Positions 886 through 59,217 of a DNA stretch of 64,000 nucleotides are shown piece after piece. A model generated the notes under the pieces. The model made no database searches, was not told the DNA's origin, and was given only the letters and a program-made list of their open reading frames with translations. Source of the stretch: Arabidopsis thaliana (Eukaryota; Streptophyta; Magnoliopsida; Brassicales; Brassicaceae); assembly GCF_000001735.4 (NCBI RefSeq), contig NC_003071.7:1995001-2059000 (forward strand). The letters are read 5' to 3'. The position numbers were made by a program, and so were the translations under genes. Within the stretch, counting starts at the first letter, position 1; every line of letters starts with the position of its first letter.

Positions 886-2867
886 GTAAAGAGCCGGTTC
901 AGTTTCCTTAACCGTTTTCTGGTTTCAAAATAATTTAAATATTTAAAATTATTAATTTTAAAACTTAAATTAAATAAAAAAACTGTCTTCTTCGAGAAAG
1001 CAGAACAGTTCCGATGAAACGAAGAGTGATTTCGAAGAACCAGAGAAATTCCGACAAAACTGAAACACAATTCCGATTGAGGCTCTGTTCGAGTTCGAGT
1101 CGTTGCTAAAGTGGAGAAAATTTCGATAGAGTTCGTGTTAAAGTGTGGAACAATAATACAATTTTTGGGTTTATCGATTGACTGTTCAGAGAAGAGCTCT
1201 AATGGCGGCGACGAGGAAGAGTAGTCGGCGGCGAGGAGTTTCGGATATTGATGAGGCATCGGCGGCGACGACAAATCAGGGTTAGTTTTCCCTAACTTCG
1301 TTTGGAGAATGATTTGATTCAAAATCTAGGTTAATTTTAGAGATTTCAACTCAGAAATTTTCAATTGACAAAGGGGTTTTTGGTTTTTTCCGCCAAAAAC
1401 AGTTGATTGAGTATAAAAGGTTTCGGTGTACGTGTATATGAATATCGAGTTTATGTTTAGTTGGTATTTGAATATAGTGTACGTGTTAAGAACTTCTTCG
1501 TCTTGTTCAACTTTCAGGAAGTACTTCTAATGATCCGGGTGAATTACCACAGAGGTTGTTTGCACTCGATCACTACCCTAGCAAGGCGAAGATAAATGCG
1601 TACTCCAGACCGGAGTACATTGGTCAAATAGCAGTTGCGCTTAAGGACACACCAGAAATGACGTTCCTTCTAGATTCTCCATTTGGTGACCTCTTTAGGA
1701 TCCCTACTAACAAGGCATCCTTTTCTGGTAAACTTGTTCTTGGGTTAATATGCCGTCAGTTAGTTACAAAGAAACGTTATGAGATGTGGATGGTATTCGC
1801 TGGTCATCCTATTAGGCTAGGATTAAGAGAATGGGCACTTATAACTGGTTTGGAATGTGGAACCTATCCTAAAAATAAGGATGTAGAAAATGTTATGCAG
1901 CGGCAGGAAGGTGAAAATACAATTTGGGCTACTCTGTTTGGAGATGATAAAGCTGATCCAACAGTTGAAGAATTAAGGGATAGATTGATTTCTGAAACTG
2001 ACATGCCTGCATGGAAGAAATTAGCTCTCGCCCTAATTATCATTGTGGATGGGGTGCTAATATGTGACAAGTCTCCTCCTTTGAGACCAAATGAGATGAC
2101 AGTTGAGCTGACGAAGAACCTTGATTTCTTCTGTAAATATCCCTTGGCAAGGACATCATTTCTGCTTACTTTGGAGCGTATCGCAAGTTTCAAAGGAGAG
2201 ACCGATGTTCAAAAACTCCGGAGTGGTTGCAAGCAACATTCTTATGCACTCCATGGCTTCCCACTTGGACTCCAACTCCTCGCATTCAAAACTATCCCGT
2301 CTATTGCTAGTCTTCTACCTTCTGAAGGAGATACCGCCATCTTTACAGAGAGGACTATTAAAAACCTTTCCAAACTGCGTCCAATCAAGACATCCACCAT
2401 ATTGGCGTGCGAGTCTGCTGAAAAGGTTTGTGCAGTTGTTGTTGTACGTACATTGGTATAAAAAAATGAAGTACATACACTCTGAAATTAACAATGATCA
2501 TCTATGTAGGTGGATATCCCATATATTATGGACCCAGCAGACAGTAATTGCCCAAAATCTTTTGTATGGAGGAAAGAAAAAGAGGACCCAAGAGTTGATA
2601 ACATTTTAAGGATGTTGAAATCTGGGCAGGAGTGGGATGAGAAAATGTGGGTTGGAGGCGATGATGCGCCTAAGAAGCAAGTCCGACCATCAGCAACTGG
2701 AGAGAGAGGTAACCATATCTTTTCATCGTATAAATTATATCAGAATTAGGTTCCTCTAAGAGTAGTAATGCATGATTTAACCGTTTAATATAGTTATTTT
2801 GAAGAGGCAAAGACGGGTGGCAGATCCTGTTGAAAACAAAAAAAGGAAAATTAGTCACTCTGATAAT

Positions 2868-2948
2868 GGTGAAGGTGGACCCAGTGGTGGTGATGGTGAA
2901 GGTGGACCCAGTGGTGGTGATGGTGAAGGTGGACCCAGTGGTGGTGAT
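2868..2948 (+). repeat. 27-bp coding minisatellite x3 in the ULP gene
   Basis: There are three near-perfect copies of a 27-bp unit encoding GEGGPSGGD, at 2868-2894, 2895-2921 and 2922-2948, in exon 4. The unit keeps the frame. Element 2 lacks the array at the matching place, so it expanded after the copies separated or was lost there. Confidence 0.85.
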
Positions 2949-4535
2949 GGTGAAGTTGGAGACGAAGCGTTTGATAAGTATGCGGTCGAATTGAGGCGTT
3001 TCTTCAAGAGGCAAACACAACTATTGGATAATAAATTTGAAGATTTAAAAGTATTTGTCCGTGAAGAGATACGTGCTGCTCTACAGTCCCAGGACCGAAA
3101 CGAAGAAGGCCCACGAGCATCCCACAAATCTGATTCACCATCTGAGAAAGTTGAGAGGGTGACCAAAACTGTTAAGAAGGTGAACAAAAGGGTTGAGAAG
3201 GTGAACAAAAGAGTTGAGAAGGCAGCTGAACAGGTACAGATAAAATCTGTAAAGAAATCCACCAAACAAAAACACTTTGTTCCAAGAAGATCTTCCAGGT
3301 TGAACAATACTCCCAAGAAGGCTGCAACTGGTAGTCTTCCTGTTGAGGTACGTCTACAGCATGTACCTTGTGTAAATACAATCCAAAAATAGGTTTTTAT
3401 TAAGTGTACGTACAACCAAATACTTAGGAATGCCTTATATTGGTGTTTATTCACAGGAGGTACCAGGCAATGATGGGGATGGCGAAGTTTCAGCAAAACA
3501 TACCGTCTCTGACTATGATATGGACAACATATATTTGGGTGGAGCATCATCAACTGAACAGGTAACTCACTTGTGTAATAGTCATGTTACAGTTTTTGCC
3601 TTATTGTACGTACATAAAGAAATATTACTGACCAATTGTATGGTTTTGATTTCGAAGGAGGAAGGAAGGAACTCGGAGATTGAAGAAGATTCTTCCAAGT
3701 TACACCAAAATGTCTCTGACTCTGTAATGGAAGACAATGTCGATCATGTTCCATCACCATCTCACCAGGTAACTTGTGTTCTTATTATTTCATTATTGTA
3801 TGTACAAAATATTTTATGTTCTTTATGTTCTTACTTTTGACATAACAGCCCGAACAAGGCATTCCTGATGGTGGTAACTTTGAAGAACTCCTGCCTGACC
3901 CAATACTGTCTGACCCAGCCATTGAGAAAATGTCAGATGATGTATCTTCCTCGTCCCATCAGGTACAGGAGTACGTACTACTAATTATAGTGTACGTACA
4001 GATGATTTCTAATTTGTATTGTTTGCATTTGTATAGGACGTTGCGAAAGGCCTTGGTGGTAATCGTGAAGAAGACGTTGTTGCTCCTGAGTCACAACAGT
4101 TGGAGGAGCCACAATCACCGGAGGTCAAGGTTAGGCAAGAAGTTGCTTTTAAAGTTACAGAAGATGGCAATCCCAGTGTACGTACAATGTTTTTGAAATC
4201 TGTTTCGCACCTTTGAATGTTTTGCTGTGAGTTTGACTAATAGATGGACATCCATCTCCATATAATGAGGTCAGGCTGAAACAATTTGTGGGGATGGAGA
4301 GGAAGCTTTGAAGGAGGCTAAATCTCCAAGCGTTGTAGATGAAGCCTTGGAGGTATGTGTTACTATTTTGCTATTTGTAACGCTTATTTGCCAATTAGAG
4401 ATATAACCAATTATTTGGTTACTAAATCTGAAGGACACTGCGTTACCTGGACTTGTTCCTCCGAGGACTGTAGGGGATTTTGATTATGAAGCGAATCTCA
4501 GTGACCTGTCTTCACCAACCGTAGTTGTTAGCAAG

Positions 4536-4828
4536 GTAAGTTCCTAACTAACTATAATATTACTGTCGGAGATATCATTTGATGTTTGTTATATTGTTTT
4601 CATTAGGTGCTTACTCAATTGAAGGACGATATTCTCGCAGAAAATGTATCTAAAATTCCTGAGAAGGTTGTCGTCCCTGAAGAGGTAATTTATTAGCTAA
4701 CTATTAATAACATTACTGTCGGAGTTATAATTTGATGTTTGTTAAATTGTTTTCATTAGGTGCTTACTCAATTGAAAGACGATATTCTCGAAGAAAAAGT
4801 ATCTGAAAAGGTTGCCATCCCCGAAGAG
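4536..4828 (+). repeat. Tandem duplication of one intron + exon unit in the ULP gene
   Basis: Intron 4536-4606 plus exon 4607-4684 repeats as intron 4685-4759 plus exon 4760-4828. Both introns carry an ACTGTCGGAG block and end GTTTTCATTAG. Both exons start GTGCTTACTCAATTGAA and encode VLTQLKDDILEEKVS-like peptides. The duplication preserves phase. Confidence 0.85.
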
Positions 4829-6454
4829 GTCAGTATATTATCCCGTGTACCTATTAATATTTCTACTAGACGGGCATATAGTGTACGTACTCTTGTAGTT
4901 GTTTCCATGACCAATCTAATTATATGATTTTGTGCTTGCAGACAGGAAAGAAGGACGATGTTGTCGAAGCGGGTGTTTCTCAAACTGAAGCAATCGTTGC
5001 TCCCGTAAATGAGAAAGAGAAGAAAAGTGTAAGACGGAGAGTTACCTTCTCCGATGACACAAAAAATGATGATAAAAAAGGTCCTGATGTAATATTTGTT
5101 GAGGAGAGAGAGGCAGGCCCGGAGGTTTTTGTTAAGGCTGGCGATTCGTTGTACAATCCTTTGGAGAAGGTTGAAGAAGCTAAATTCCAGAAATTATGCA
5201 ATATAATGCAAGGAGAAAAAAGGTATGCATCTGTGCATTCACACAATTATCTGTTTGTTTGTCAATCTTATATCAATCATAACTATTTCATATGTCTTAC
5301 TAATTTCAGGTGCCATACTCTTTTCGGCTTTCGAAAAGTGGGCAACGAATTCTTCATAACTCTAGCCGAGGCTAATGATTGGGTTGGCTCATACGTAAGT
5401 GACCATTAATTACGTACACTGTTGTAAGTGTACGTATATGTAATAATATGTTTTTGAAAGTACGTACATAACATCATACTTTTATGTACTTTTCAGCACA
5501 TGGAAATGATGGCACTCTTGATGTGGCATAAGAACGGGGAGCATATGAAGAGAAATCGGTATGTCGTGGTGGATCCCTAACTCACTTTCCTTCTGTCAAG
5601 CTGTGCCACTGCATTCAAATCCTGTCGTAACCCCGAGACTTTCAAATGGGACAAACATCTCACACGGTTTCCCAAGGGAGAATGCCTTAATTGTGAACCA
5701 CAGCTGCATTGGATCAGAGATGTCGACGTCATATTTGTTCCCATGAACTGGAAAGATGAGAAGCATTGGGTTGGGTTGGCTATATGCCTGGAACGTCGTG
5801 CTATTGAAATCATGGATCCTTTGCGTTCGCTTACGCGGGAGTCTGTGGTTAGGTCACGTATCCTTCCAATAATGGAGATGCTACTGTACCTAGTCAGAGC
5901 GACATGCAAAGATTATCTCGATAAGCCTTATCCCGTGACTCCTTTTACATACATAAGGAATCAACGTCTAGCACAGAATCCAACTACCGGAGATTGCGGT
6001 CCGTACGCGATGGAGTTTATTGAGTTGTACATGCTTAACACTCCTGTTGAGGACATGTTTTCGATTGAAGAAGATGATATGTACAACTTCCGTAAGGGTT
6101 ACACAGTCGACCTCTACGAGCATGGAATTGGGTCATTAACTTAGTTATTTGAAGTTGCAACTAAAGCAAACTTATGTGTTTTGTATGCCTTTTGGAACTT
6201 GTGTTTGGTTGTGTTTACATTTACTTGTTTGTTTTCTAAACAATTTATTACTTTTGGATGCTAAGCAACATTTTATGTAGTAATTAACAACGTACAAAAA
6301 CAAGATATCTTACCAAAGTAAGTACAAACTACGTGTCCACAGTACACGACTGTTGTGTATACAGGCGGTAACATTGATTTGACATCCATCAATGTAAAAT
6401 TAAATTTCTCATTGAATGTAACTGTAATTTCCCCAACAATATCTCCATCCGTGG

Positions 6455-6462
6455 TTATTAAA
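6455..6462 (+). promoter_or_regulatory. TATA-like box TTATTAAA upstream of gene A1
   Basis: GGTTATTAAA lies about 45 bp before the ATG at 6506. The same box stands 42-50 bp before the starts of B1 (7821) and A2 (52,683). This supports the inner ATG as start, because the upstream in-frame sequence would lie around the transcription start. Confidence 0.55.
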
Positions 6463-6505
6463 TGGGAGGAAGAATTTGACCTCTTCGGAGTATCTCATTT
6501 CTAAG

Positions 6506-7201
6506 ATGGTCAATCCCACTATTTCCGACGACTTGCTCGCTATGATAGCTAAGAAAGTGGCAGACAAAAGCTGGTTGGACCTTAAGCCACTGATACGATC
6601 TGGCACTTGTGGAAGAGACATTGTCTACCGACCGGATGTCCTTAAAGACGCTAACATCTACAGCTTGTGCCGTGTTCCCGATGACTTCCAAGTAGGAGGT
6701 GGCCATAATCCAACCGGACCCCAAGGAGAAGGCCGCAATCGACCATTTTTCAAAAGGTGCCTTCTCGCTAACAATTCGACGACTGTGTATAACGAAGCAA
6801 TACGTGTTCTAATTCATGAAACTGACATCAATGGAGCACTTAAGCTCATACAGCGTCATGCACCCGTCTGAGCAGATGCAACCATCGCCTGCGCCATCAT
6901 ATTTATATGTGCGTGGTATGATTATATGGGTGGGTTGTTTCTTGACCTCTACACACGCAACCATCATCCATAGGAGTCCGATTTCACCCGAGATTTGTGT
7001 GAGGAGTTCCTCGAGGAGATAAACAAGTTTAACCCGCCGTACAATAATACTTACGCTCGTTCGTTCTGTTATCCGATCAGCCATGGAATTAATATGCCAC
7101 AATGCGCCTACCATTGTTTCATGGTTTCTAGTGTATACCAGAACGTTTGTAACAAGTGTTACCTATGGTCGTGTGCTAGGCGAATTAGCCGAATGCTCTA
7201 G
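6506..7201 (+). pseudogene. Gene A1: F-box-like / Cys-rich protein (At2g35280-like), two stops
   Basis: This is the degraded counterpart of gene A2 (52,733-53,428). The N-terminus looks like an F-box (DDLLAMIAKK..DLKPLIRSG), followed by the family block GRDIVYRPDVLKDANI. The middle is helical, repeat-like (YNEAIRVLIHE.. GALKLIQRHAPV), and the C-terminus is Cys-rich (CNKCYLWSCARRISRML). TGA at 6869-6871 replaces the Arg codon of A2 and TAG at 6971-6973 replaces Leu. The frame is otherwise continuous to the stop at 7199-7201. F-box proteins normally recruit substrates to SCF ubiquitin ligases. That role is inferred here, and the F-box itself is weak. The family resemblance is from memory. Confidence 0.75.
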
Positions 7202-7383
7202 GTCTCTCATTTGTACGTGTGTTTGGTGTACGTACACTGTCACGTGTTTCAAGTTTGTTAGGTGTTTGGTCCTATGTATTTTGTTTTTGCTTCATTGAAA
7301 TTACCTATTATGTTGTTTTGTTTCCGTTTCCTTTAAATTCCCTATTTACAACTTCTGTGTCTGTTTCATGCGGTTTGGTTCTA

Positions 7384-7501
7384 TCGGTCATGAATAATAT
7401 ATTTCGGTCATGAATAATATATTTCTGTTGTCAAACTAAACTTACGGTTGTACTTGCATTCTAACAAGTACTTACATTCTAACAAGTACTTATATTCTAA
7501 C
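7384..7501 (+). repeat. Short tandem repeats in the A1-B1 spacer
   Basis: There is a 20-bp unit twice (7384-7403, 7404-7423; CGGTCATGAATAATATATT) and an 18-bp unit two and a half times (7452-7469, 7470-7487, 7488-7501; ACTTRCATTCTAACAAGT). The spacer also carries GTACGTAC cores at 7228 and 7738. Confidence 0.85.
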
Positions 7502-7820
7502 TATAAATGTAATAATAAATGTAAGGATATATGTCAGTCAATTGACGCAGAATGTCAGTCTTATTAAAGACGTGCCAAGCGTTAATTAATAAATACACTC
7601 CCACTTGTCATAATTGCCAGAACGTTTAGTCTTATAATAAATATACGTACACGTGTAACTCCTTATTAGACGTACATATATCAATCATTTAATATAAATT
7701 TCGTTCGGATTAGACCGCAAATATGAGAATTATATATGTACGTACACTGTTACTCTATACGTACATTTATTGACAAATTTATTGTAACCGCTATCTCCCC
7801 ATCCGACCCTCCCTCCTGGG

Positions 7821-7828
7821 TTATTAAA
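7821..7828 (+). promoter_or_regulatory. TATA-like box TTATTAAA upstream of gene B1
   Basis: The box lies in GGGTTATTAAAAGG, 42 bp before the ATG at 7870, at the same spacing as in A1 and A2. A conserved leader (GAGTATCTCATTTCTAA) follows it. Confidence 0.55.
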
Positions 7829-7869
7829 AGGACAATGATCTGACCTCTTCGGAGTATCTCATTTCTAAC

Positions 7870-8564
7870 ATGGTCAACCTCACTATTCCTGACGATTTAC
7901 TCGCAAAGATTGCTAAGACAGTGGTTCACAAATGCTGGTGGGACCTTCAGCCACTACTACGGTCAGGCAGACGTAGCAGAGATGTTGTTTACCGTCCGGA
8001 TGTCCTGAAAGGTGCTAATATTTTTAGCATGTGTGAGGATCCCGACGACTACCAAGTTGATGGCAGCCATCATCCATCCGGCGCACAAGAAGAAGGCCGA
8101 CATCGAGCCTTTTCAAAAGGTGTGTGGATGCTGGCAATCCGACTGCCATGTATTTTGAAGCTCTTCGTGTTTTAACGCATGAACGTGACACTAAAGGAGC
8201 CATCAACCTCTTACGACCTCATGTTCCATCACAAGTCCATGCTACACTTGCTTGTGCGATAGTTTACATAATTGACGGGAATGATTACATGGGAGCCATG
8301 TTTCTAAACCTATTCGGACGCAATCATTATTCTTTGGGGACAGAAGAGACACGGGATTTGTGTGAGGAGTTCCTGGAGGATTTAAAGAAGTTTTGCCCTC
8401 CATATAATAATACTTACGGATCGACGTTCTCTTATCCTAACAGCCATGGTATTAAAACTCCAGATTGCGTCCTACTTTGCTACATTGTATCTGGACCGTT
8501 CAAGAACGTGTGTAACTGTTGTTACCTCTGGTGGTGTGCTAGGCGAGTTAGCCAAATGCTCTAG
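7870..8564 (+). pseudogene. Gene B1: F-box-like / Cys-rich protein, one frameshift
   Basis: This is a paralogue of A1 and counterpart of B2. The first part is open from the ATG (IPDDLLAKIAK.. RDVVYRPDVLKGANIFSMC). Near 8,113 a single T is missing from the codons for the conserved Phe-Phe-Lys-Arg-Cys. The rest continues in another frame (MDAGNPTAMYFEALRVLTHE) to a stop at 8562-8564. The C-terminus has the family Cys pattern (CNCCYLWWCARRVSQML). The lost base is the only lesion I see, so inactivation may be fairly recent. Confidence 0.75.
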
Positions 8565-9339
8565 TCATATAAATCTACTAGTTATTTGAAGTTGTTATTT
8601 AATGTTATCGTCTAAGTTATGTTCCTAGTTCTTCTAATGCCGTTATGTTTCTATTTCGTTTTATCCTCTATGCGTGAAGTTGTTCAAGTTCTTGTAATGC
8701 TTCTATAAAGTTATGTTTCAATTTGTGCTTATCCTCTGGTTTACAAAGTTTCTCGGTTTAATGGTTTATTCGGATGTAAGCAATAAATTTGAAGTTTCGT
8801 AATCCATACTTCTTTCTGTACTTACATTATAACTTTAAAGTTACTATAAATGTAGGAATAAATATGATTGGATTGACGCAAAAGACAGTATTGTGATACA
8901 CGTGACCAGGCATAATAAATACACTCCAATTCGGCGTATAGGTTTATATAGACGTACACGTGTTACTAATGACGTACATGTAACTAATGAGTCGACGAGT
9001 TATCTTGGGTTTACATTAAAAATTACAAATTTCAATATAGACGTACATGTGTAAATCTAAACGTACATAAACCAATAAACTCGAAAATTGTAATTTGAAG
9101 TTTCAGTTTTAATCGGAAATAGTTTATAGTTTATTATTTTCATGTAAACACGAGTTAATGTCCAATATTAATACCACCTACAATATGTAAGTGGGACATC
9201 AAACATTTAATTAGTTGTCTCCTCGTCATTAGGTCTATATAACATGTACTCTGAGACAAGTCATCTTCTGCACACTTTTCATTGCTCTTACTACGCCATA
9301 TATAACCTAAACTCACAAATAAATCCCTCAGTCTCGGCA

Positions 9340-9969
9340 ATGGACGTCCCCACACCCCCACCGGCGGAAATTTACCTGGCCATTCAGCTACCTAACCCAC
9401 TCAGCATCCTCGTCAACTACTTACCCGTTTCCGTAACTCCCATTGAAACCCTCAGAGGTCTCGTTAGCACGCTGGAGCCGACCGCTATCAACATGGATGA
9501 GTTTATGACGTGACTTGATTTCGTGTTGCCGGAAACACCTTTCCGAACATATTTCACCCTCCTGCTTGAACGTGGAGCAAGGCCGGCGATTTACCTTGAA
9601 GGGGTTCGTTTAGCTTGCAATTTCGTTACGGTTGCTCATGGTTTAACCATGTTGAGTTCTATCTCGCCCATCGACGCTTACGCATGTTTCTCTCATGGTC
9701 TGTCCCTAACCGCAACTGGCAACGGACGAGAGGTTGAAGCCGTGAACGCGACTTTCTGGGATTTAGTGCCATCATTCGAAGCTGCAAACACAGTGGGGGA
9801 GTTGGTTATGTATCACATAAGTCGACTGCATGCTGAAGGAACTCGGTTGTGGAATCGTTCATGGAGGTTCGTGGTTTCACCAGACTGCTTGGGTCGTTGC
9901 AGCTACGGAGCCTGCTACCGCAATTGCTTCTTCTACTGGTATGCTAGGGAGTTGTGCATATTTTATTAA
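9340..9969 (+). pseudogene. Gene C1: diverged Cys-rich relative, one nonsense codon
   Basis: The third cargo gene has a different N-terminus (MDVPTPPPAEIYLAIQLPNP) but the same architecture: a helical middle with YLEGVRLACNF and a C-terminal Cys-rich end (CLGRCSYGACYRNCFFYW) followed by YARE, which aligns with the CYLW.CARR ending of A and B. TGA at 9511-9513 stands where the C2 copy has TGG (Trp). The frame is otherwise open to 9969. A TATATAA at 9236-9242 may be its promoter. I see no convincing F-box. Confidence 0.65.
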
Positions 9970-10387
9970 GGAAAGGCGTTCGTTCAGCATCTGATTTCCC
10001 ATTCTATGCATCGGCTATAATTTCGGGTTTTTGTAAAGCATATGTTTTCCTGTTATATGCTTCGGCTTTAATACTTTGGTTGTATGCTCTACTCGGTTTG
10101 TTGTTATGCTTTGTATTTCCTGCTCTTATTTGAATGTTTTTTTATTTCCTTGTTTTATTGTTTATGTTATGAATGGAACTAAGTTTGTTTATATTATACA
10201 TAGAGTACACCTATTTGAACGTACACAAACATAAATGTACGTCCATGGAAAGTCATTACAATTAGGCTGTATTTGTAATAAGTAAACTGTAGCAATTAAA
10301 AGGTAAAACTTTAGCATAAATGTAGGGATATGTTTAAATTTGGTTACAAATCTGTAGTTATTTAGAATAAAAGAAACAAGAGATAAA

Positions 10388-11337: not shown

Positions 11338-11775
11338 GATGACAACAACAAAAACCAGAATAACCGACTTTCTGTCTTATTTGTGTGATGGGTGTGGACT
11401 TTTGTTTGAATGAATTAAGGGTGTTATCACCAGTTTCTTAAATAGATTTTAGAAAGACGCGATGATTGGTCCCAAATCGATGTAACGGTATACTAAAAAA
11501 ATGTAACCGTCAACTCTGTATAATTAGATGTACCCAATGTACGTACAAATGAAAACGTTTATCCAACGTACGTACAGAAAACAACGGGATTGACAAAAAG
11601 TTGAAAGATAATCAAATACACCGATAATACGAGGTCCACAAACGTACGTACATAAGGTAACGTACAGACAAAATAATATGTAATATTACTACATAGACTG
11701 ATCAAAAGATTTCCAAAAACGTACGTAGAACAGCTTCCAAAAGCACGGAGACGTAAACTCTAACCATCGCGAGGC

Positions 11776-19310: not shown

Positions 19311-19329
19311 TCAAATAGTAGTTCGTAAT

Positions 19330-33139: not shown

Positions 33140-33142
33140 TTA

Positions 33143-47180: not shown

Positions 47181-47471
47181 GTTCAGTTTTGAAAAAGACA
47201 AAAAAAAAAAACTGAAACGAAGAAACCCGAGAAAACGATAAAGAGAAGAGAGTAACGGAGAGATTTGAGAGAGAATCAGAAAGCGAAACGAAATTAAGTA
47301 TCCATTGCTTCAAAATTCAACATAACTTCGAATTGTTGGGTAGTTGAATTGAGCCACAGAACTCCCACATCCGGGGAAGTGAAAGTTAATGTTTTTCCCA
47401 GCGAAGCCAAGAGAAAGTTACTGTTTATTCCGGCAAAATTTGAACCTCCGGCGAGATAGCATCTTTAGCTA

Positions 47472-50400
47472 TGGCTGGGAATAAAGCTAACGACGAAGTC
47501 CCGAGGAAGCAGCATGGTCCAGGGAAGGAGAAGCGGGTATTAAGAGTTTCCCCGCGGAGAAAACGCTCTGCGACAAAGGCAACGGAGGAACTGGGTTAGA
47601 ATCTCTAATTTTCCGTTTGTTGTCTTTGGGTGTATCAGAATTGTAAAGCTTGTTTGATTAAAGGGTTAGAATTTGTCGGAATTTAGCATATCTTTAGGAT
47701 GAAAAATTGAGAAGTAGAATTGGAAATCTCTGTTTCCGCCAAAAATATGATTTTGAGTTATAATCTGGAAAATGTCTGTGTACGTACACTACTTCGGTTT
47801 GCTTAACAATATATGACTTTTAATTGCAGGTAGTCCAAGTGTTGCTCCGACTGAAGATCTTACAGTTGAAGAGTTACCACCAAGACTCTTTGCTCTAGAC
47901 CGGTATCCTTCCGAGACGAAGATGAACGCGTACTCTAAACTGAAGTACATTTTTGACATAGCAAATGTACTAAAGGGGAAACCAGAGATGCAGTTTCTTC
48001 TCGATTCTCCATTTGGGGAACTTTTTAAAATACCCAAAAACAAGGCATCTTTCAATGCTAAGCTTGTCCTTGGACTAATATGCCGTCAGTTAGTGACAAA
48101 GAAGGTGAATGAGATGTGGATTGTATTCGGCGGTCATCCAATTAGATTTGGATTAAGAGAATTTATTATCCTAACTGGGCTGGAATGTGGGAAGTATCCC
48201 AAGAAGAAAGACGTTGATGATGTTATCAGTGTGAAACCTGAGTGTGAGAGTGTTTGGAAGACTCTGTTTGATGAGAGGTTTGGGGACACGATTCCAACAA
48301 TTGCTGATTTGGTGAGCTGGCTGCAGGAGGAGGAAAGCATGGAGGGGTGAAAGCAACTGGCACTATCTCTTATTATTTTGGTTGACGGTGTGGTAGCGGC
48401 CCACAGTAACCCCAACAGGCCTACTTCGAAGACTGTCGAGATGACTAAGAACCTGGAGTTCTTCTGCAAATACCCATGGGGAAGGGTGTCCTTTACCCGT
48501 ACTTTGGGGAGGATAACAAATTTCCAAACTCCTTACGATGCTCAACAACTAATAAGGGGTTTACTTGTAGGGTCTTATGCACTCCATGGCTTCCCATTAG
48601 CTCTCCAGCTTTTAGCTTTCGAAACAATCCCATCAATTCTAAGCTAGGACCTGATGATGTACCTAACAGGACATTTGCTGAGTGGTCTATCCATCGTCTT
48701 GCCTCTCTGCGAGCAATCCGGACATCTCGCATTTTGGAGTGTGAGGCTGCTGATGAGGTGTGTTAAATTGTGTATGTACGTACATAATAAGTAAATGTAC
48801 ATTATCTATGGTTAACATACTTATTTGTGTAGGTTGAGGTCAACTATATTGTGAAACCAGCTGATAATGTTTGTCCTCCATCTCTTTCATGGGATGATGA
48901 AGTTGATGATCCAAGGGTTGATTACATTGAGGCACTGTTAATAGATGGGCCTCAGTGGCAGGAGGATGAATGGGTTGGAGGCTATGCTAGAGTACCAAAG
49001 CAGTTGCGCCCACCACAACTAGAAGAGACAGGTAAGTATAAGTATAAAGGTTGTTTACAAATTTTTTTGGTATTGCACCCAGAAGAAAACCAATTAATAG
49101 CAGCAACTGGTCTATTGTAGATGTTAAGAGGAAACGAAATGCACCGGGCCCGAGCCCTAAAGAACCTGCTATGAAAAAACAGAAATCTGAAATGGACTGT
49201 GATAAAGAAGAGAACGCTGAGGATTGTTTTGGAGAGCCTGTGCCTGAGAGGTTTATTGTTGAAATGAGGAGGTCTTTCAAGGAGCTGGAAGACCAAATGT
49301 ATCAAATGCATGAAGATATGAAAGACTTTGTCCGTGACCAGATACGTGCTGCCCTTGATCCAAAAGGCAAAAGGACAGAACAAACCATACCTTCCCATGA
49401 TTCGCGGGAACCACCTACTTCTATGGATAAGGCACCGGTTACTACGAAGAAGCCATCGAGAAGGATGTCTACAAAAGGAAGCACTGGAACGAGAAAGTCT
49501 TCAAGGCTGACTCGTGTTTCTCATGATGTGGACACTCCTGCACTTTCTGTTGGCTGTAATTCCAAAGAGGAAGATTTGGATGTCCCTGGAGTACATACCA
49601 CTGCTGTCGGCGGAAGAAGAAAACCTTCAAAGCCGAAGAAAAATGTTTCTTTTGCTGTTGACACTACTGAGCTACCTGATTCCAATAAGGAAGATATGCA
49701 AGGATTCATTGATGAACAGGTAAGTCATGTACGTACATTGCTAAATATTTTATAATCCATATGTATAACTGTACTGTCTGCTTCGATACATTATGGCGCT
49801 AATAATGAAAGTGATTTTACTGCAAATGATGGATTGGATTCTTCGGCCGCTGAAGAAGAGATATTAGACACTGGATTTTTAATAGTTCCTTATGCTGGAT
49901 CCACACAATCCCATCTGGTATGTCGTCTACTAATACTCTAAACAATCTGTTTAAATGGTGTACGTACATATTCGCTTAAGAAGTTAGTTAAACTATGTTT
50001 CAGGATAGAGGAAATGTTGTTGTTGGTAAGACTGTCTTCTTAGGTTCAATGTCTGGGACTGTCTATGTTACACAGGAAGAGAGGCCTGTGGAAGAAGCTA
50101 CTGTTGACACCGAGATGGAAGAAGTTCCATCTAATGTGTCTGCAATAGTTTCAGAGGTAGATCTTCTGGTAATCGTTATATACAGATTTCCATGACTATA
50201 TGCATATATATTACATTAATTTCTCCACTTATCTAACGCTTAACTCTATGGTAGCCTATGTTTCAGGATAATGGACCAAAGGATGTTGCCGAACCTGGCT
50301 TAGTTGGTACCCATACAGGGGCCGATGAAATAGCTGATGCTGACATAGAGATGGTAGACAATCCATCAGGTTTACCTTCAACATCTGCACACGTATGTGT

Positions 50401-52367
50401 TAGTCACTTGTTCTTTTTCCATATGTGTACGCCCATAAGACTTTGCAAATTATTTTTGTTTCAGAAAGAAGCAAGAGATGCCAGTGCATCGACTGAAGCT
50501 AATGGCAGCGACTCAGAAGAAACTTATGAGCCTTCTGATGGAGATACAACTCACGTACCTAGCACAAGTGTACGTACATTTTTGTCACTATGTTCTGTGT
50601 ACATATATATTGTTTCATACATTAGTAGAAAGTTTCTTTCCGATGATAAATTCTACAGGTTGAGGCGGCAGGAGAATCCAAATTAGTGACAGGGATGGAA
50701 GTTGAAATACCTGAGAAGACTCACAGTGATCCCCCGTCACCATTTCAAGTAGTTAACAATGTAAGCTAACTCTTGCAACAAATAAAATGTACTATTTACT
50801 GTTCAAATGTATAAAATTTATATTATGCAGGTCATACGGGAGTTGGATACCAAAGCCGTTGGTGATTTGGCTGCAGCTACTGATGTGGAGGTAACAATTT
50901 GTGTGTTTCAATTCCTATTTTCGGAATAGCATGCATAGGATTATATGTGTACATTATATAGATTTGTGTACGTTAACTTGCACAGGTAGTCATGGAAGAG
51001 CCGGGTATTGTCGAGGGGTCTGTAGGAACTGAGGATCCTAACCCAGGGTCAGATGAAGCAGACAAGACCGATATTCCTAAAAATAATGTATGTACCTATT
51101 TTAAACATAGAAAAACGTATGAAACTGTTGTTGACAATCATATTTGTTAATAGGATGAATCAGACAATGCTGCTGCTGTCGAAGCAAAAGAAGAAAAAAA
51201 ATCGTCCCCAAAGGTCCCAAAAAAAGTGAAGAAGCAACTTGTCTATGAACAGGATGATGCACATCCTCATGGTTTTAAGGCAAAAACAGTCTTGGTGCCC
51301 GATGTACCAACTCAACAGATAGAGGTTGTTATCAGGGCTGGAAATGTCTCATACAACCCCCTGGACATGGTTGACCCTTCAAAAGTAGAGGAATTCAGCA
51401 ATATCATTAAAGGACCCTCTATGTAAGTACATTATATTAAAATAGATTATTTAATATCTCAATCATCATTTTTCCAAGTCTTAAGGTTGTTATCAAATAT
51501 TTTTCTGGATTTACAGGATTCACACTCTTTTTCGGGTTTCGCAAAGTGCCCAACGAGTTTTTTGCGAACCTTCTAACACCTGGTGAATGGGTCGAAAGTT
51601 CGGTACGTTGCATTTATATACGTACATTCCTTGTTATAAATTGTACATAGATGATTAAATTTTTCGTGGAAGTGTACGTACACTGATATATTTTTTGAAC
51701 ATTTCAGCATTTAGAAATGATGGCAATGTTGATGTGTCACAAGAACGGGGAACAGATGATAGCAAACAGATGTATTGTATTGGACATGATGCTGACGCAT
51801 CTACTTACCAAGCGGGTGGGCGACTTCAAGAAGTGTATTAATAAGAACGGGTTCAAATGGGGTAAATTACTGTCCGACATTGCTAATGGAGTTCACATAA
51901 ACCGTGAACCCAATATGAAGTGGCTGAAGGATGTCGATGTTGTGTATGCTCCGATGAACTGGAAGAGTGAACATTGGGTTGCTTTGGGAATCAACCTTAA
52001 TGAACGGCTAATAACTGTGTATGACGCTTTAATATCGCACACGCGGGAGTCGGCTGTGAAGGCGAGAATGACTCCTATTTGCGAAATGATGTCGTACTTA
52101 GTCAGAGCGATGTGCCAGGATGTATTGATTTCTCCGTACTCAGTTGAACCTTTTGAGTATGTGCGTTGTCCTACCGTTGCTCAAAACCCAACTACAGGAG
52201 ATTGCGGGCCATACACGATGAAGTTCTTGGAGTTGCTTGCGTTTGGACACCCTTCTTCGGAATTGACAACCATTCGAGAAGCAGATATGGTCTTCTACCG
52301 TCAGAAATACTCGGTTGACATCTACGAGCACGGCAAGCGGGAGGTCGGTACTGTGCACTTGCTTTAA
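47472..52367 (+). pseudogene. DUF1985 / ULP1-type protease gene of element 2, broken
   Basis: Exons I can place are 47472-47595, 47830-48757, 48833-49031, 49121-49719, one ending at 49917, 50004-50156, 50267-50392, 50465-50569, 50659-50760, 50831-50890, 50986-51087, 51154-51422, 51517-51602 and 51708-52367. DUF1985 is in exon 2 (FGELFKIP, LVLGLICRQLVTKK). It carries TGA at 48348-48350 where element 1 has TGG, a 1-base frameshift near 48,640, and one surplus base around 51,517. The protease end is intact locally: His at 51,972, Asp at 52,023, Gln at 52,182, Cys at 52,203 (AQNPTTGDCGPY). Its lesions differ from those of element 1, so the two copies died independently. Confidence 0.85.
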
Positions 52368-52682
52368 TCGTCCAAGAACAATATTCTGGTTCTTTGCAAC
52401 CAATTATTATGAACAAACCTATCTTAGATATATGATTGCAACTACATTTAATTTGGAGATTGTCAGAAGTTAATTTAGTGTCCTCTATCATATTGTCGTA
52501 CACATCGTTCACTTCTAATTACATAATGTAAATGTGTACGTACATATCTATATGTCTCGTACACTGCATATTAACTTTATAACATAACTCAAGTGATAAA
52601 TTGATTTGACAGCCAACGCTTACCAACACAAGTATGACATTCATTTCAACCGTAATTGCCCCAACCAAATTCACAGTAGTGG

Positions 52683-52690
52683 TTATTAAA
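52683..52690 (+). promoter_or_regulatory. TATA-like box TTATTAAA upstream of gene A2
   Basis: It lies in GGTTATTAAAGTG, 50 bp before the ATG at 52,733, like the boxes of A1 and B1. Confidence 0.55.
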
Positions 52691-52732
52691 GTGAAGAAAT
52701 TACTGACGATCTCTGACTATCTCATTTCAAAC

Positions 52733-53428
52733 ATGGTTAACCCGACTCTTCCCGACGATTTACTCTCGAAGATAGCTAAGAACCTGGCTGACCAATGCTG
52801 GTCCGACCTTGGTCCACTGGTACGATCCGGCACTCGTGGAAGAGACATTGTCTACCGTCCGGATGTCCTCAAAGATGTCAATATTCTCACCTTGTGTAAC
52901 TCGCCCGATGACTTCCAAGCTGGAGGGGGCCACAATCCCTCCGGATCCGCTGATGAAGGCCGACATCGACCATTTTTCTTGCGGTGTTTTGCAGCTAATA
53001 ATCCCACGACCGTGTATTACGAAGGTATTCGTGTTCTAACGCATGAACGAAACATCAATGGAGCCATCAGGCTCTTACAGCGTCATGCTCCAGTACGAGC
53101 AAATGCAACACTTGCATGCGCCATTGTATTCATATGTGCTTGGTATGATTATATGGGCGGCTTGTTTCTACAGCTATTCACCCGCAACCATTATCCATTG
53201 GACTCGGTTGCCACTCGAGTTTTGGGTGATGAGTTCATCGAGGAAATAAAGAAGTTTGACCCTCCATACAGCAATACATATGGTCCTACGTTCTCTTATC
53301 CTACCAGCCATGGAATTAGTATGCCTCCTTGCGCCTTACATTGTTACATGGTATCAGGAGCTTTCCAAAACGTTTGCAACCGCTGTTACCTCTCGTCGTG
53401 TGCCAGGCGTGTTAGTCAAATGCTATAG
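52733..53428 (+). CDS. Gene A2: F-box-like / Cys-rich protein (231 aa), intact
   Basis: This is a single open exon. I chose the ATG at 52,733, which aligns with A1 and follows the TATA-like box; an upstream in-frame ATG exists at 52,634. The N-terminus (LPDDLLSKIAKNLADQCWSD) is F-box-like. Next come GRDIVYRPDVLKD, a Gly/His-rich loop (FQAGGGHNPSG) and RPFFLRCFAANNPTTVYYEG. A helical, Sel1/TPR-like middle (INGAIRLLQRHAPVRANATL) follows, and the end is Cys-rich (CALHCYMVSGAFQNVCNRC, SCARRVSQML). The family resembles the At2g35280-type F-box proteins. If functional it could be an SCF substrate adaptor in the nucleus, but this is inference. It is intact although the ULP gene next to it is dead. 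Confidence 0.75.
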   Translation: MVNPTLPDDLLSKIAKNLADQCWSDLGPLVRSGTRGRDIVYRPDVLKDVNILTLCNSPDDFQAGGGHNPSGSADEGRHRPFFLRCFAANNPTTVYYEGIRVLTHERNINGAIRLLQRHAPVRANATLACAIVFICAWYDYMGGLFLQLFTRNHYPLDSVATRVLGDEFIEEIKKFDPPYSNTYGPTFSYPTSHGISMPPCALHCYMVSGAFQNVCNRCYLSSCARRVSQML

Positions 53429-53830
53429 TTATTCCATTCTACTTTATATGTTTGTTTATGTTATCCGCTATGTCATGTTTCAAATTATGATAAGGCTTCT
53501 ACTATGTTGTTTATGTTTATGTTGAAATTATATTATTGCTTAAGAAATTTGCAAGGTGTGTTATGTTTCTCAAGTTGAATATTTTTCAGCCAAATTCGCA
53601 TATGATATTTAGTTCCCGCAGTAAATGTAAATTTGGATATTAAAATCTAAGCGTCCACAACTACGTACACGTGCATCTACCAAATAATACTTAAAGGTTT
53701 TTGGTTTGTCTCGGAAAACTAGATATGGACGTACACTAGCATGAGATATCAACTCTAACGTACACTAAAAAATAACACATGCAAACATATGAGGTCTTTG
53801 GTTTGTCTCATAAATGGTTATATTTATGAA

Positions 53831-54000
53831 TGGACGTACACTGATAGTACACTACAGCGTACACTGTTTGTTGGGTAAATGTAGAAATATAAATGTGGAC
53901 GTACACTAAAACGTACACTACAACGTACACTGTTTGTTGGGCAAATGTAGAAATGTAAATGTGGACGTACACTAAAACGCACACTAAAACGTACACGTCT
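53831..54000 (+). repeat. 65-66-bp tandem repeat built on ACGTACACT, A2-B2 spacer
   Basis: The units are 53,831-53,895, 53,896-53,961 and a partial 53,962-54,000. Each starts TGGACGTACACT, has two more (A/C)(C/G)GTACACT motifs, then GTTTGTTGGG(T/C)AAATG. It concentrates the element's GTAC motif in one array. Further single GACGTACACT and AACGTACACT motifs precede it at about 53,727 and 53,757. Confidence 0.85.
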
Positions 54001-54208
54001 AGTTTTAAGCTGTTATTAAAAAGAGGTTGCTCATAACAACAATAACAAATTATATATGGAATACTATTACGTTGATTTGACAATATGAAGACACATCATC
54101 ACTTAATACCTTTGCAATAAATACAACCATAACTTACCCAACCATATCTTCAATGATGCTTATTTAAGTGTTGGAATTTCATTTTGTTGAACCACCTTAC
54201 ACCTAAAT

Positions 54209-54904
54209 ATGACAAACCCAAATATTCCTGATGATGATTTGCTTGCGAAGATAGCCAAGAAAATGGCTGACAAATGTTGGTGGTACCTCGGACCTATGTT
54301 GAAATCCGGTCCTCGTGGAAGAGACATTGTCTACCGTCCGGATGTCCTCAAAGATGCAAACATTTTCAGCATGTGCGACGATCCCGATGACTTCTACGCG
54401 GCAGGCCACGATCCAAATGACATCAACTCCGAAGGTCGCTATAGACCATTCTTCAAACGGTGCTTACAAGCTGGTAACCCCACGGCTATTTACCATGAAG
54501 GACTGCGTCTCGTTACACATGAGTCTGACATTCAGGGAGCTATCCTACACTTAGAGCGAATCGCCCCAAGGAACGCCGCTGCAACCCTTGCATGCGCAAT
54601 TCTTTACATATGTGCTGGTAATGCTCACATGGGTGGTGTCTACCTTCGGCTCTTCGGAAGCAACCATTATGCTTTGGAATCGGAGGAGGCACGTGACATT
54701 TGTGAGGAGGTGCTAGAAGATATAAAGAAATATGGTAATACTTTAAAATACACATACGCTAACAGTTTTTTGTACCCGGAATGTGGTGACGTAAGCACTC
54801 CTGAATGCGCGGAGATGTGTTACATGAGATCGAGACTCTTCAATAATCTTTGCAACCAATGTTACATCTGGTTGTGTGCTAAACGGATTAGCCAGATCCT
54901 GTAG
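54209..54904 (+). CDS. Gene B2: F-box-like / Cys-rich protein (231 aa), intact
   Basis: One open exon, 783 bp after A2 and clearly its paralogue. The F-box-like start is IPDDDLLAKIAKKMADKCWW. The block GRDIVYRPDVLKDANIFSMC is shared with A and B1. RPFFKRCLQAGNPTAIYHEG leads into the helical middle (DIQGAILHLERIAP). The Cys-rich C-terminus has CAEMCYMRS and NLCNQCYIWLCAKRISQIL. It is full length and unbroken, while B1 has a frameshift. A TATTTAAG at 54,161 may be its promoter. Substrate-adaptor function is inferred; the Cys pairs suggest zinc binding. Confidence 0.75.
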   Translation: MTNPNIPDDDLLAKIAKKMADKCWWYLGPMLKSGPRGRDIVYRPDVLKDANIFSMCDDPDDFYAAGHDPNDINSEGRYRPFFKRCLQAGNPTAIYHEGLRLVTHESDIQGAILHLERIAPRNAAATLACAILYICAGNAHMGGVYLRLFGSNHYALESEEARDICEEVLEDIKKYGNTLKYTYANSFLYPECGDVSTPECAEMCYMRSRLFNNLCNQCYIWLCAKRISQIL

Positions 54905-55391
54905 AGCTCACATTCGCCACGATCCTGTCATATTTATAAGTTTTCCATGCAACAATATGTGAGCTTTTTACGTTGATTATCAGTAATGGAAGTTTGTAAA
55001 TGAAGACGAAAGGAAATTTGATTTGACGTCGTATAACCCATATCTAGAAGATTTCGCTCCATATTAATTACTCGTTGTCAAATACACTCTAGAAGTGACC
55101 TCCATCACACTCTCATTAATATCTCTATTAGACGTACACGGTTCCCGAGCAACGTACTCAATTGATTTGGCAGATAAATTAAGTAAGTTAATGTTTATTT
55201 GAAAAGATTGTTAGTAAATGCGTTGACCCCTAATATAGCACTATACATGAAGCCATATTGTTCCACTTATATGCAATACAAACAGACATCAACTCAACCT
55301 TCTATCAGAAAACGTAATGAGTATTTTATAGACGTACACGGCGCGATTATGAGAGGTACACAGTAGTTTGTTTAAATTAAAAGTTACCTAG

Positions 55392-55980
55392 GAATCCAAT
55401 TGCCAAACCCCATAAGCATACTTGTCAACTACCTCCCCGTCAGCCAGACTCCCATAGAGACGCTAAGGAACTTAGTCTACAGTTATAACATCAACACCCT
55501 TGCAATCGATGAATTCATGACGTGGCCGTCGTTACTCCAACCGGAGTCTACCTTCCGGCCATACTTCGAGCTGCTTGTAGAACGTGGATCCATCCAGGCG
55601 GTTTACCTTGAAGGTGTTCGCCAAGCGAGCAACTTCGTAAAGTAGCTCAGGGCCTTTCAGTCATGACAACGGTCGCTTTATCTGATCCCTTTGCTTGCTT
55701 CGCAACCGGTTTGTTCCTTACGTGTACCGGTAATCACTTGGATTTCCTCCCGATCAGCGAAAAGTTCTGGGAAATGACACCCACCCTTGAAGCTGGCCAC
55801 GCGGTTGCAGAGATGGTGATGTATCACATCAGCCAGCTTCACACTGAAAATGCTCGCCGCTGGGAAAGGTCTTGGAGGTTTGTCCACCCGCCGAGTTGCG
55901 TAGGGCAATGCACGTTCCATCATGGCTGCAGGGTTTGTTTTTTCTACTGGTACGCCAGGGAGATTGCTATATTCTACTAG
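55392..55980 (+). pseudogene. Gene C2: Cys-rich relative, 5'-truncated and frameshifted
   Basis: This is the counterpart of C1. The reading starts in mid-gene (IQLPNPISILVNYLPVSQTP); the first ~25 codons of C1, including its ATG, are absent. It continues through FRPYFELLVERG and YLEGVRQASNFVK, then TAG. Near 55,641 one base is missing, and the remainder (VAQGLSVMTTVALSDPFACF..) follows in another frame to 55,980. The ending CTFHHGCRVCFFYWYAREI matches C1. Confidence 0.75.
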
Positions 55981-56568
55981 AAGCAAAGCTGCTAAGGTTT
56001 AAGCTACTCTACTCGGCTCTACTCTCAAGTCTTTTGGTATGACGGATGCACACATATTTTGCAACACATGTGTATGCTTCGTTGAAAAAATTATGTTTTT
56101 TGAATCGTTCCAGTTTATTTATCTTATGAATTTCCCTTTATATAAACTGCCTGTCCTTTTTATGTTTCTGGCTGTTCAATGAATTACAACATTAAGTATT
56201 ACTAGATGTCTTCGTGTACGTACACTATATAGTACATTAAACTTGGTTTATCGTACATTGGGAAATTGCGTACACAACATAAGTATAAATCTAATAGTTT
56301 TTGATGTTGAAGGCACCAAAATTAATATACGTACACGATAGCGTACACCAGAAACTATACGTACATTGCGAGAGGATTTGAACAATAAAACAAGGCACGT
56401 ACATAAAACAACAAATTAGATTAACATTTAAACGGAAACAGGAAACAACAACGACTGAAATGTAGTTTGGTTCTTATGGAAACAACAACAACAACTGGGA
56501 AAGAAAACTTAATTGAAATGTAGTCTTATATTATATTAAAACGGAGAATAATGGTTAATTCCCTCTAG
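55981..56568. other. Spacer between gene C2 and the minus-strand chimera
   Basis: It holds the convergent 3' ends. GTACGTAC occurs at 56,216, with ATACGTACACG and ATACGTACATTG nearby (56,328-56,368). No gene is seen. Confidence 0.6.
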
Positions 56569-58475
56569 CTAAAAAACCACCATCGAGATATCCGCAACTT
56601 CTGGTCTGTCCGGATTGGCAACCACCTTTGAAATAGCACTATGGCTCTCTAGCTTCGGGTTAGACAGTTCAGTTAGAAACCAAAAGCTGAGTGCGACAAC
56701 AAAATTTCCCTTACCCAAACTCTGAAAGTAACCATCCAAGTACTCCGCCTGTTGATTGCGGGCTTCGCACTCCAAGACTTCATTGCTACGTTAGAAATAA
56801 GGACAGTTAGCGTTTAGAGTGACATTGTAAATAAAACAAATGAAAAGAACACTTACTATCTATCTTTTATCTTGAAACTCAGTTTGAGACCGTAATAGTC
56901 TGTAGTCAATGCGCCAACATCATCCAACACTCCAACGACATCTAGATGATGGAGAAACAAAGATAATAAACAAAAATATGAAATCCACACATTCAGATCA
57001 TTTAGGAGCAGCTGTGGTAAATCGACAGCTCGCGGCCCACCCTGCGTAGAACTGTATCTGCTCCTCACAACTTCCCCGAGGAGCTTATAATTAGCATGTT
57101 TATTGTAGTTCTTCCAAGAGTCGATGTTACACGTATGTGTCGTAGCATACGAAGTGATTTTGAAACTTTCTGAATCCTTCACGACGCGAGCAGTCAATTG
57201 CCATGGACAAGTCTCATCAACGCACACCATCTTCAATGTTTTAGGACATGACTTAGGTTGCTTGAAGCAAAAGCATTGCTTTATCGCTTGAAGAGACATT
57301 GTTTGTTGCAGGACTTTTCTATTCTTAAAAACACATCCAACAAACAAAGTTTCGCCTGTGGTGCTGATTTCAACCTGTGTCTCATCAGCTCGAAAATTGA
57401 GTAAGTCATCGAACACAGGAGCAGCATCGTTACCGAGATTCGCCAACTCGCCACCATGTAACTTAGGAAATTCATTATACACTTGGTAAGCCTCAGCTGC
57501 GGTAACTACCCCATTATCATTCTGTGTCCCAGTTGAGGAAGCTCCAATACCGTCGATCACTTCATCCCCGGTGACTTCGTCTATACAAATAAGATTGGAA
57601 TCCCTTTGCCCTTCGCAGCGTGTACCGTAACCCAATGGAGAAATTGTTTCTTCGCCAGGTACACTAAGACCAGTGTACGTACACGTTTCCAAGAGACGAC
57701 TGAATTCCCCTGTATCTCCGCCAGGTACACTAACACCCGTGTACGTACACGTTTCCAATAAACGACTGAATTCCCCTGGATGTTGAGCAGTCTGTTGAGT
57801 GAGACTGACGTCTTCCTCAAGATTTCCTTGTACATATTCTTCTACTATTACATCGTTCCACTTGTTGTAATCGTATTCTTCGCCAATACCTTCACTACCG
57901 TCTGTGGTAGGATACAAGGTACTTCCCCCAATAGATCCATCCACACCAAGATAATCATCACACCCATCATCATCTTCGTTGCCCTCCTCCACTTCATCCT
58001 CTTCTGTTGTATCGTCTTCAACATCGGCTTGCTCCTCTGCATCCTCATTATTTTCATCAATATTTGTAGCACTATCAAACACACGGTCACTTTCAGAAAC
58101 TTCACCATGAGACCTAGAGACAGTATTCCCGAACGCCTTCACTGTATTATTGAAAAAGACGAACAAGTTGAGAGAAAGATACCCACCACGAACCAAAAAA
58201 AACGTTTCGAGACCCATCTGACTGTCAATGTATACAGGAGGGCGTTTAGTATCTATCAGCACTGACATTTCTCCCGGCATCCAGTAGCTAATTATGGGAT
58301 TGATCTCGGTGGACTTCAAACTGAAAGCCTCTCGGAGTGTACGGACAAAGTCCGTGTACGTCATGGTTTCCTGAACGCGTACACAACGACCAAAGATGCC
58401 TTCCTCAGGTTCAAATTTCCATTCTCCTTCTTTGCATTTCCACTCACCGACCATAGTAAATACGGGAATATCCAT
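56569..58475 (-). CDS. Chimera: MULE transposase N-terminus fused to RPA-like C-terminus (611 codons)
   Basis: Exon 1 is 58475-56857 and exon 2 is 56785-56569; together they stay in frame for 611 residues. Residues 1 to about 500 match the transposase of element 1: N-terminal domain, acidic region, MuDR DNA-binding part (CFCFKQPKSCPKTLKMVC, CPWQLTARVV) and the end LPQLLLNDLNVWIS. The frame then runs through former intron sequence (YFCLLSLFLHHL) into the RPA-like C-terminus (DVVGVLDDVGALTTDYYGLK, splice, NEVLECEARNQQAEYL, ending ISMVVF). The DDE core, SWIM and zinc knuckle are gone. It may be expressed as a DNA-binding protein without catalysis, which could act as a repressor, or it may be an accident. 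Calling it a gene is inference. Confidence 0.6.
57654..57785 (-). repeat. 66-bp in-frame tandem duplication in the transposase part
   Basis: Units are 57,654-57,719 and 57,720-57,785. Each encodes 22 residues including GEFSRLLETCTYTG.SVPG. Each contains one GTGTACGTACAC. Element 1 has a single, more diverged version of this region. Confidence 0.85.
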
Positions 58476-59217
58476 AACCCACCTGCATCATAAATTCAGG
58501 AGACACACATTAAATGCAACTGAAAAATACTATACATATAAAAAACAAATGGAATGTCGATACTACACATTTATAAACCTAAATACCAATTATCATTTGA
58601 CTATTTCAAACAAACAAATATAGATTTTGCAAATTTTCTGATAAAAAAATGGAGTTCGAACACAATCAAGATCCTAATATGACATAACAAAAAACTTCTT
58701 AAAAGAACTTCATTACTTACACGAGCAATGCTTGTTTTGGCTCCAAACTTGGTACAAAAACAAGATCAACACTTCTTCAGCAGCAATGTACGTTCTCAAT
58801 AATTCTTTGTTCCTGGGTTCATCTTCTTTATCTCAACAATTTTTTTATTAATTATTATCAATAATTTTTTTAATATTATTTGATGTAATGATGATTTTGC
58901 ATTAATTGTGACAATAGTCACATCTAAACTTTTTGAGGGCATTAAATGTTGATGTCACTTCGGAATAATGGAAATAATCTCACTTGTAACGGAACCGAAT
59001 CGCGTCAACGTGAAACAAAAAATCTTCAACTGAACCGGAACAGTGTACTTAACTAAACCTGCTAAACTAAACCGTACATTTCAACAGTTACTAAGAGAGA
59101 AGCGCAAGGGCAGAAGCGTCATTTTGCAGGCAAAAAGACAAATGGTGAAAACCACATTTGACTTTGACAATCCATGAAAATAAAACATGGTCAACGGGTG
59201 TCGCCTGCAATTTACCC
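58476..59217. other. Right non-coding end of element 2
   Basis: This holds the leader and promoter of the minus-strand gene, then the right inverted repeat (about 59,100-59,217). Subterminal tracts rich in CGGTT/AACCG (58,990-59,075) mirror those at the left end (47,090-47,190). Confidence 0.7.

Follow-up and report, generated by a model that had tools for sequence, protein, structure and literature searches.

The closest described relatives of the elements reported here, in the consulted parts of the papers, are KI-MULEs (Mutator-like elements, MULEs, with a Ulp1 gene), Ulp1-bearing VANC proteins with anti-silencing activity, and VANC1 with its action on VANDAL1/2/22 (PMC5735166, PMC10398659, PMC6446971, PMC7385966, PMC13317346, PMC12312487, PMC2528002). 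These parts place the Ulp1 gene of KI-MULEs in reverse orientation relative to mudrA (PMC2528002), put VANC targets in tandem arrays with YAGTATTAY as the VANC21 motif (PMC5735166), and give target-site duplications (TSDs) of 8–11 bp for MULEs and 9 bp for the VANDAL group (PMC6446971). Here we analyze a stretch of 64,000 nucleotides of Arabidopsis thaliana (contig NC_003071.7, positions 1,995,001 to 2,059,000; the window). Our reading, to which we give a probability of about 0.75, is that it holds two copies, both decayed, of a KAONASHI/VANDAL-type MULE with six genes that lacks terminal inverted repeats (non-TIR) and encodes a VANC predicted to read the motif ACGTACA and to act against silencing.

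Comparison by tblastn of the open frames of 1–16 kb with the DNA of 35–64 kb gave a collinear series with matching strands, pairing stretches of a DUF1985-Ulp1 gene (1511–2311 with 47823–48644, and 5581–6126 with 51792–52334), of three genes that we call A (6467–7198 with 52694–53425), B (7840–8561 with 54206–54901) and C (9373–9966 with 55385–55977), of an RPA-like gene (10391–10651 with 56572–56850) and of a MURA transposase gene (13205–14701 with 56976–58475). The strongest match between the copies is that of the transposase (E 3.5e-136) and the weakest that of the last RPA exon (E 1.3e-17). In both, the order is DUF1985-Ulp1, A, B, C on the plus strand and RPA-like, transposase on the minus strand. 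An earlier note on this DNA had claimed two diverged copies sharing order and orientation, which this comparison bears out. The same note had drawn one feature over 886–59217, which we rejected because there are two separate elements with ~31 kb of other DNA between them; chance collinearity of the two copies was rejected as well.

Copy 1, of subfamily II, spans 886–15501, with ends that are approximate and judged from its flanks and from an alignment (891–15518) with a sister at C2:4.87 Mb; no clean TSD was seen in the flanks examined of either. Copy 2, of subfamily I, spans 46964–59217 by alignment, flanks and TSD, the 9-bp duplication ATGTTTAAG standing at 46955–46963 on the left and at 59218–59226 on the right. 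All six copies for which both ends were recovered have 9-bp TSDs, namely copy 2 and five of the eight sisters examined (L009, L010, L011, L013 and L017), the TSDs of the five sisters all differing; for the other three sisters (L012, L016 and L026) the left family end was not found in the fetched stretch. No terminal inverted repeat was found in copy 2, where the best ungapped match between the 40-base ends was 15 of 40. A fragment of a third element lies between the copies at 36006–36828 (minus strand), comprising the DUF1985 portion with its 5' side, 76–81% identical to subfamily II.

The protease gene of copy 1 (1490–6141, plus strand) comprises a DUF1985 part at 1490–2458 (PF09331, 2.2e-29), a charged middle and an Ulp1 catalytic exon at 5488–6141 (PF02902, Peptidase_C48, 4.5e-57) that contains one stop. 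Its counterpart in copy 2 (47817–52364, plus strand) has the DUF1985 part at 47817–48644 (PF09331, 5.7e-18 and 7.9e-11; one stop) and an open Ulp1 exon at 51699–52364 (PF02902, 2.3e-72). Both window copies retain the H, D and C motifs of Ulp1; a search of the exon against the PDB gave no match at E ≤ 0.001. By its domains this is a VANC-like gene, DUF1985 plus Ulp1, and the label of ULP capture given in the earlier note therefore undersells it. On the opposite strand, copy 1 has an RPA-like gene at 10390–11338, modeled as four exons encoding about 235 aa in an open frame (six open splice models of 231–246 aa differ at two donors); the 235-aa model matches PF02721 (DUF223) at 2.2e-39, corresponding to the first OB fold. 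Beyond it lies the MURA transposase at 11876–14719 (minus strand), open over 948 codons, with DDE (PF10551, 9.1e-18) and SWIM (PF04434, 2.4e-8) domains. The claim of six genes per copy stands for their order but not for their completeness: in copy 2 the RPA-like gene is reduced to its last exon (56572–56790, minus strand), and the transposase (56859–58487, minus strand, 543 codons) to its N-terminal half, for which Pfam gave no DDE or SWIM match. In total, damage affects ULP, A, B and C of copy 1; in copy 2 it affects DUF1985, C, the RPA-like gene and the transposase.

To place these copies we searched the genome (7 contigs, 119,662,809 bases), obtaining 77 A-type, 33 C, 101 ULP-exon and 76 RPA-exon matches (matches, not genes), with transposases drawn from a PF10551 list on which 150 of 292 candidates were scored. 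At least 12 loci, copy 1 included, hold ULP, F-type (A/B), C, RPA and transposase modules, and at all 12 the order is ULP, F-type, F-type, C on one strand with RPA and transposase on the other; partial loci occur besides. The locus table behind these counts is a lower bound: its coordinates were entered by hand, one mistyped entry formed a cluster of its own, and some weak or fragmentary matches were omitted, as were most of the 150 transposases. Outside the two subfamilies are MULEs with ULP and RPA-like genes on the same strand, some with a transposase on the other strand, and without A-B-C (e.g., C2:3993258–4002635 and C5:11007132–11015471, neither with an A-B-C match). At C5:7.03, C3:14.77 and C4:1.98 Mb we found a ULP gene and an F-type gene on the plus strand and a second F-type gene and the transposase on the minus strand, with no RPA detected. 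The first two of these loci (L027 and L028) constitute a third subfamily, in which both strands have an F-type gene and a ULP gene accompanies a related transposase.

Genes A, B and C had been described in the earlier note as three F-box-like proteins. We rejected F-box membership for A and B: among 15 A/B members, none matched an F-box profile at E ≤ 10, while the TPR_27 profile matched all 15 at that threshold (best 2.1e-6), some copies falling just above its cut-off and others below. One third-subfamily relative matched F-box-like_2 at E 0.094. In copy 2, gene A (52733–53425, plus strand) is open and matches TPR_27 (PF23310) at 0.0019, and gene B (54209–54901, plus strand) is also open, matching at 4.9e-6 with 26.6 bits against a cut-off of 27 (27.9 bits in the genome search). 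Copy 1 has gene A at 6467–7198 (plus strand) with two stops, and gene B at 7828–8561 (plus strand), frameshifted over two frames and matching PF23310 at 7.4e-5, below the cut-off. Gene C, at 9340–9966 in copy 1 (plus strand, one stop) and 55376–55977 in copy 2 (plus strand, broken), matched no Pfam family above cut-off. Profile comparison joined A/B to C (probability 95.9, E 5e-9) and A/B to six TPR_27 proteins of the same genome (probability 92.7, E 4.3e-7), although a smaller A/B profile set against the single host protein at C1:25342339 was not significant (probability 6.5). That protein, which we take to be At1g67623, has both TPR_27 and an F-box. By these profiles A, B and C are one paralogous family related to TPR_27/F-box proteins, and they probably descended from F-box/TPR_27 stock, any F-box function being putative. 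With the F-box undetected in A/B, the suggestion that these genes may encode ubiquitin adaptors draws solely on their kinship with the host TPR_27/F-box proteins. Protein searches with A returned 8 and 16 matches, among them P0013, from Arabidopsis thaliana; an AlphaFold model of A was unusable (mean pLDDT 39.5).

A tree of 28 rows groups A and C into a clade each, but not B. With the B group named beforehand from this tree finding, a single B clade was rejected by the approximately unbiased (AU) test (p 0.008), so that the genes in the B slot do not form a single lineage across the two subfamilies.

We estimated dN/dS by the method of Nei and Gojobori, excluding beforehand copies that were frameshifted, had large gaps or lacked the module, and skipping stop codons; the pairs are not independent. 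Between subfamilies, medians across the six modules were 0.11–0.35: A 0.296 (42 pairs), B 0.176 (60 pairs), ULP exon 0.260 (40 pairs), RPA exon 0.352 (56 pairs), transposase 0.109 (20 pairs), and C 0.138, the last from the only unsaturated pair of 40 (pooled pN/pS 0.368); DUF1985 gave 0.31–0.38. Bootstrap upper limits for example pairs were 0.15–0.58. Values within subfamily I were higher (A 0.65, B 0.65, C 1.03, ULP exon 0.52, RPA exon 0.64, transposase 0.53), as were those within subfamily II (A 0.41, B 0.31, C 0.26, ULP exon 0.56, RPA exon 0.59, transposase 0.74). We therefore consider every module to have been under long-term purifying selection while young copies decay.

These values bear directly on passenger capture as in Pack-MULEs, in which an element hauls along pieces of host genes that do nothing for it. 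Gene capture by MULEs is described as common in the consulted parts of PMC6446971 and PMC13317346, many copies have stops in their modules, the sister L026 lacks A-B-C, and the dN/dS of 0.52–1.03 within subfamily I is what idle cargo might give. Yet the low between-subfamily values hold, with their bootstrap limits, for every module, the order is identical at 12 loci, and A or B frames are open in many copies; we regard passenger capture as very unlikely. The evidence instead supports an old, co-traveling six-gene set that moved as one unit, and the earlier claim that the cargo has long been with the element is upheld by the between-subfamily values together with the TSDs.

A further sign of a VANC-type element is a motif. 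When 7- to 10-mers were counted against first-order expectation, ACGTACA, GTACGTACA and their overlaps stood at or near the top of the lists for both copies and were absent from the top lists for window positions 16001–36000. Copy 1 has 44 ACGTACA sites (shuffle mean 1.77, maximum 7) and copy 2 has 38 (mean 1.33, maximum 5), numbers in which the palindromic TGTACGTACA is counted twice and which become 35 and 28 after merging; the remainder of the window has three. Over 300 shuffles, no CG-holding 7-mer exceeded 12 occurrences in copy 1 or 10 in copy 2. Only 6 of the 35 and 6 of the 28 merged sites lie in stretches alignable between the copies, and the motif thus outlasts its surrounding sequence. 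Tandem repeats holding it occur in copy 2 in the A–B spacer (53831–53996, 66-bp and 12-bp units) and within the transposase frame (57645–57778, 66-bp units), and in copy 1 as a short repeat in the B–C spacer (8951–8990). All 18 sister loci (L009–L026) have 20–39 ACGTACA per 10 kb, while loci L001–L008 have at most one each in about 3.3 kb, and L027 and L028 one each in 9,951 bases.

Rather than being a VANC target, such a repeated motif might serve the element in splicing, in its promoters or in binding of the transposase, and some placements in copy 1 fit this: ACGTACA occurs no more than 60 bases past the high-coordinate boundary in 4 of the 12 marked coding stretches, and 12–15 bases inside it in a fifth. 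Most sites, however, are spread over spacers and introns from one end of the element to the other, partly in tandem arrays, with 37 of 44 in copy 1 and 31 of 38 in copy 2 outside the marked coding stretches. Moreover, the third subfamily, with its ULP gene and related transposase, has another motif, CTGTACA (22 and 19 sites in L027 and L028 vs. about 1.2 expected). As a control we took a locus at C2:10.0 Mb, where a DUF1985 gene faces a MURA gene and which by its place is presumably VANDAL21/Hiun; there the same k-mer method recovered the published VANC21 motif, as AGTATTAC (16 vs. 0.27 expected), with 0 ACGTACA. We thus hold a role other than VANC targeting to be unlikely.

The features that support a KAONASHI/VANDAL-kind element with its own VANC were all read from sequence: a MURA gene, 9-bp TSDs and no TIR, a VANC-like gene facing the transposase, RPA-like and A-B-C genes, the signature of selection and the motif. 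From the behavior of VANC proteins, we propose that the DUF1985-Ulp1 protein would bind the arrays of ACGTACA that lie in the introns and spacers of elements of its family and remove DNA methylation there, allowing the element's genes to be expressed and the transposase to move the element; motif and protein would coevolve through tandem-repeat turnover. More weakly, the RPA-like protein may cover single-stranded DNA in excision, repair or copying, and A, B and C may be TPR adaptors that descend from host genes, whether or not their F-box works; they may assist the VANC-like protein or the transposase either by linking it to a host protein or by having such a protein removed. The earlier suggestion of a toolkit acting on host control is retained for its likely link to silencing, but nothing points to host repair.

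Several observations weigh against this picture. Neither window copy is intact, and dN/dS in young copies ranges from 0.26 to 1.03. Between the subfamilies, dS differs from module to module (medians: A 0.62, transposase 1.20, RPA 1.24, ULP 1.64, B 1.72), and the set was therefore not always one block, its modules having been exchanged or having unequal histories. Members without A-B-C or RPA, which the earlier note had held would count against it, are found outside the two subfamilies, and one sister, L026 (C1:9.0 Mb), has ULP, RPA and transposase without A-B-C, which may thus be dispensable. For A, B, C and RPA, the roles are guessed from the families to which they belong. Besides the undetected F-box of A/B, the C profile scored a probability of 3 against the six host TPR_27 proteins, and the RPA-like protein matched human RPA70 DBD-A/B weakly (E 0.17, residues 43–231).

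Other features of the window are a LINE-like remnant at 41070–46480 (minus strand), immediately left of copy 2, with reverse transcriptase, endonuclease and DUF4283 matches; an inverted repeat (39140–39375 and 39982–40217) with 236-nt arms, 93% complementary, and 606 nt between; and a tandem duplication (17122–17839 and 18510–19179) at a spacing of 1.34–1.39 kb, its pieces 88–94% identical. Glycine-rich repeat stretches lie at 21273–21503, 31583–31776, 35108–35227 and 60868–61539; three glycine-rich stretches are downstream of a common signal-peptide-like start (20803, 31213 and 34751), and Pfam gave no match on 60742–61560, which includes the last of them.

The proposed mechanism links ULP genes of the KAONASHI type to ACGTACA, a specific DNA code that can be put to the test, and these elements indicate that selection can maintain four further genes in VANC-type elements; their kinds, TPR adaptor and RPA core, go unmentioned in the consulted parts of the literature. 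A, B and C offer a direct route to ask whether transposons recruit host ubiquitin/SUMO machinery against silencing. A bolder version, which we offer as doubtful, is a full kit in which a motif-reading fusion of VANC and SUMO-type protease works with three co-opted TPR adaptors and the element's own RPA70 core; the adaptors, taken from host F-box-type proteins, would turn ubiquitin/SUMO control against silencing factors, and the RPA70 core would manage single-stranded transposition intermediates.

How much of this is new depends on whether the elements are the published VANDAL1/2/22 group with VANC1, their targets and gene set already described, to which we give even odds. In the portions consulted, VANC1 acts on VANDAL1, 2, 22, 1N1 and 2N1 (PMC10398659) and Ulp1-bearing VANCs with anti-silencing activity are reported (PMC13317346, citing Sasaki 2022), but KIU is there one of three coding genes, not six (PMC13317346). 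This identity is compatible with the proposed mechanism and bears on novelty only. ULP-bearing MULEs were indeed described before, as the earlier note stated, in the form of KI-MULEs (PMC2528002, PMC13317346), while titles and abstract openings on MULE gene sets yielded no description of A-B-C plus RPA, in agreement with that note. As far as seen, novelty lies in the stable cargo of A-B-C with RPA and in the predicted motif, which may already be published for VANC1.

Compared with known systems, and for the literature within the consulted parts, the present elements share with KAONASHI/KI-MULE (PMC2528002, PMC13317346) the non-TIR MULE form and an Ulp1 gene opposite mudrA, but have six genes, with A, B, C and the RPA-like gene, instead of three including one ULP. 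Ulp1-bearing VANCs, VANDAL1/2/22 and VANC1 (PMC10398659, PMC13317346) are probably of one kind with the present elements and may even be identical to them. With A/B, the F-box/TPR_27 proteins of plants (for example, that at C1:25342339) share C-terminal cysteines and probably the TPR_27 region; they differ in the F-box, undetected in A/B, and C is more distant. With the human RPA70 DNA-binding core (PDB 1jmc), the RPA-like protein shares the DUF223 OB fold and, at the weak E-value above, a collinear match ending in IANPDIPE; it differs in its size of about 235 aa and in being transposon-borne. VANDAL21/Hiun (VANA, VANB, VANC; PMC5735166, PMC10398659) likewise has a DUF1985 gene facing MURA and a short motif in non-coding tandem repeats. 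Its presumed locus, however, has the other motif given above, no Ulp1 match, no A, B, C or RPA match below E 0.05, and a presumed VANB exon with a zinc-finger look that lacks Pfam support; and where the VANDAL21 layout has a VANB-like gene beside the transposase, the elements described here have the RPA-like gene in that place.

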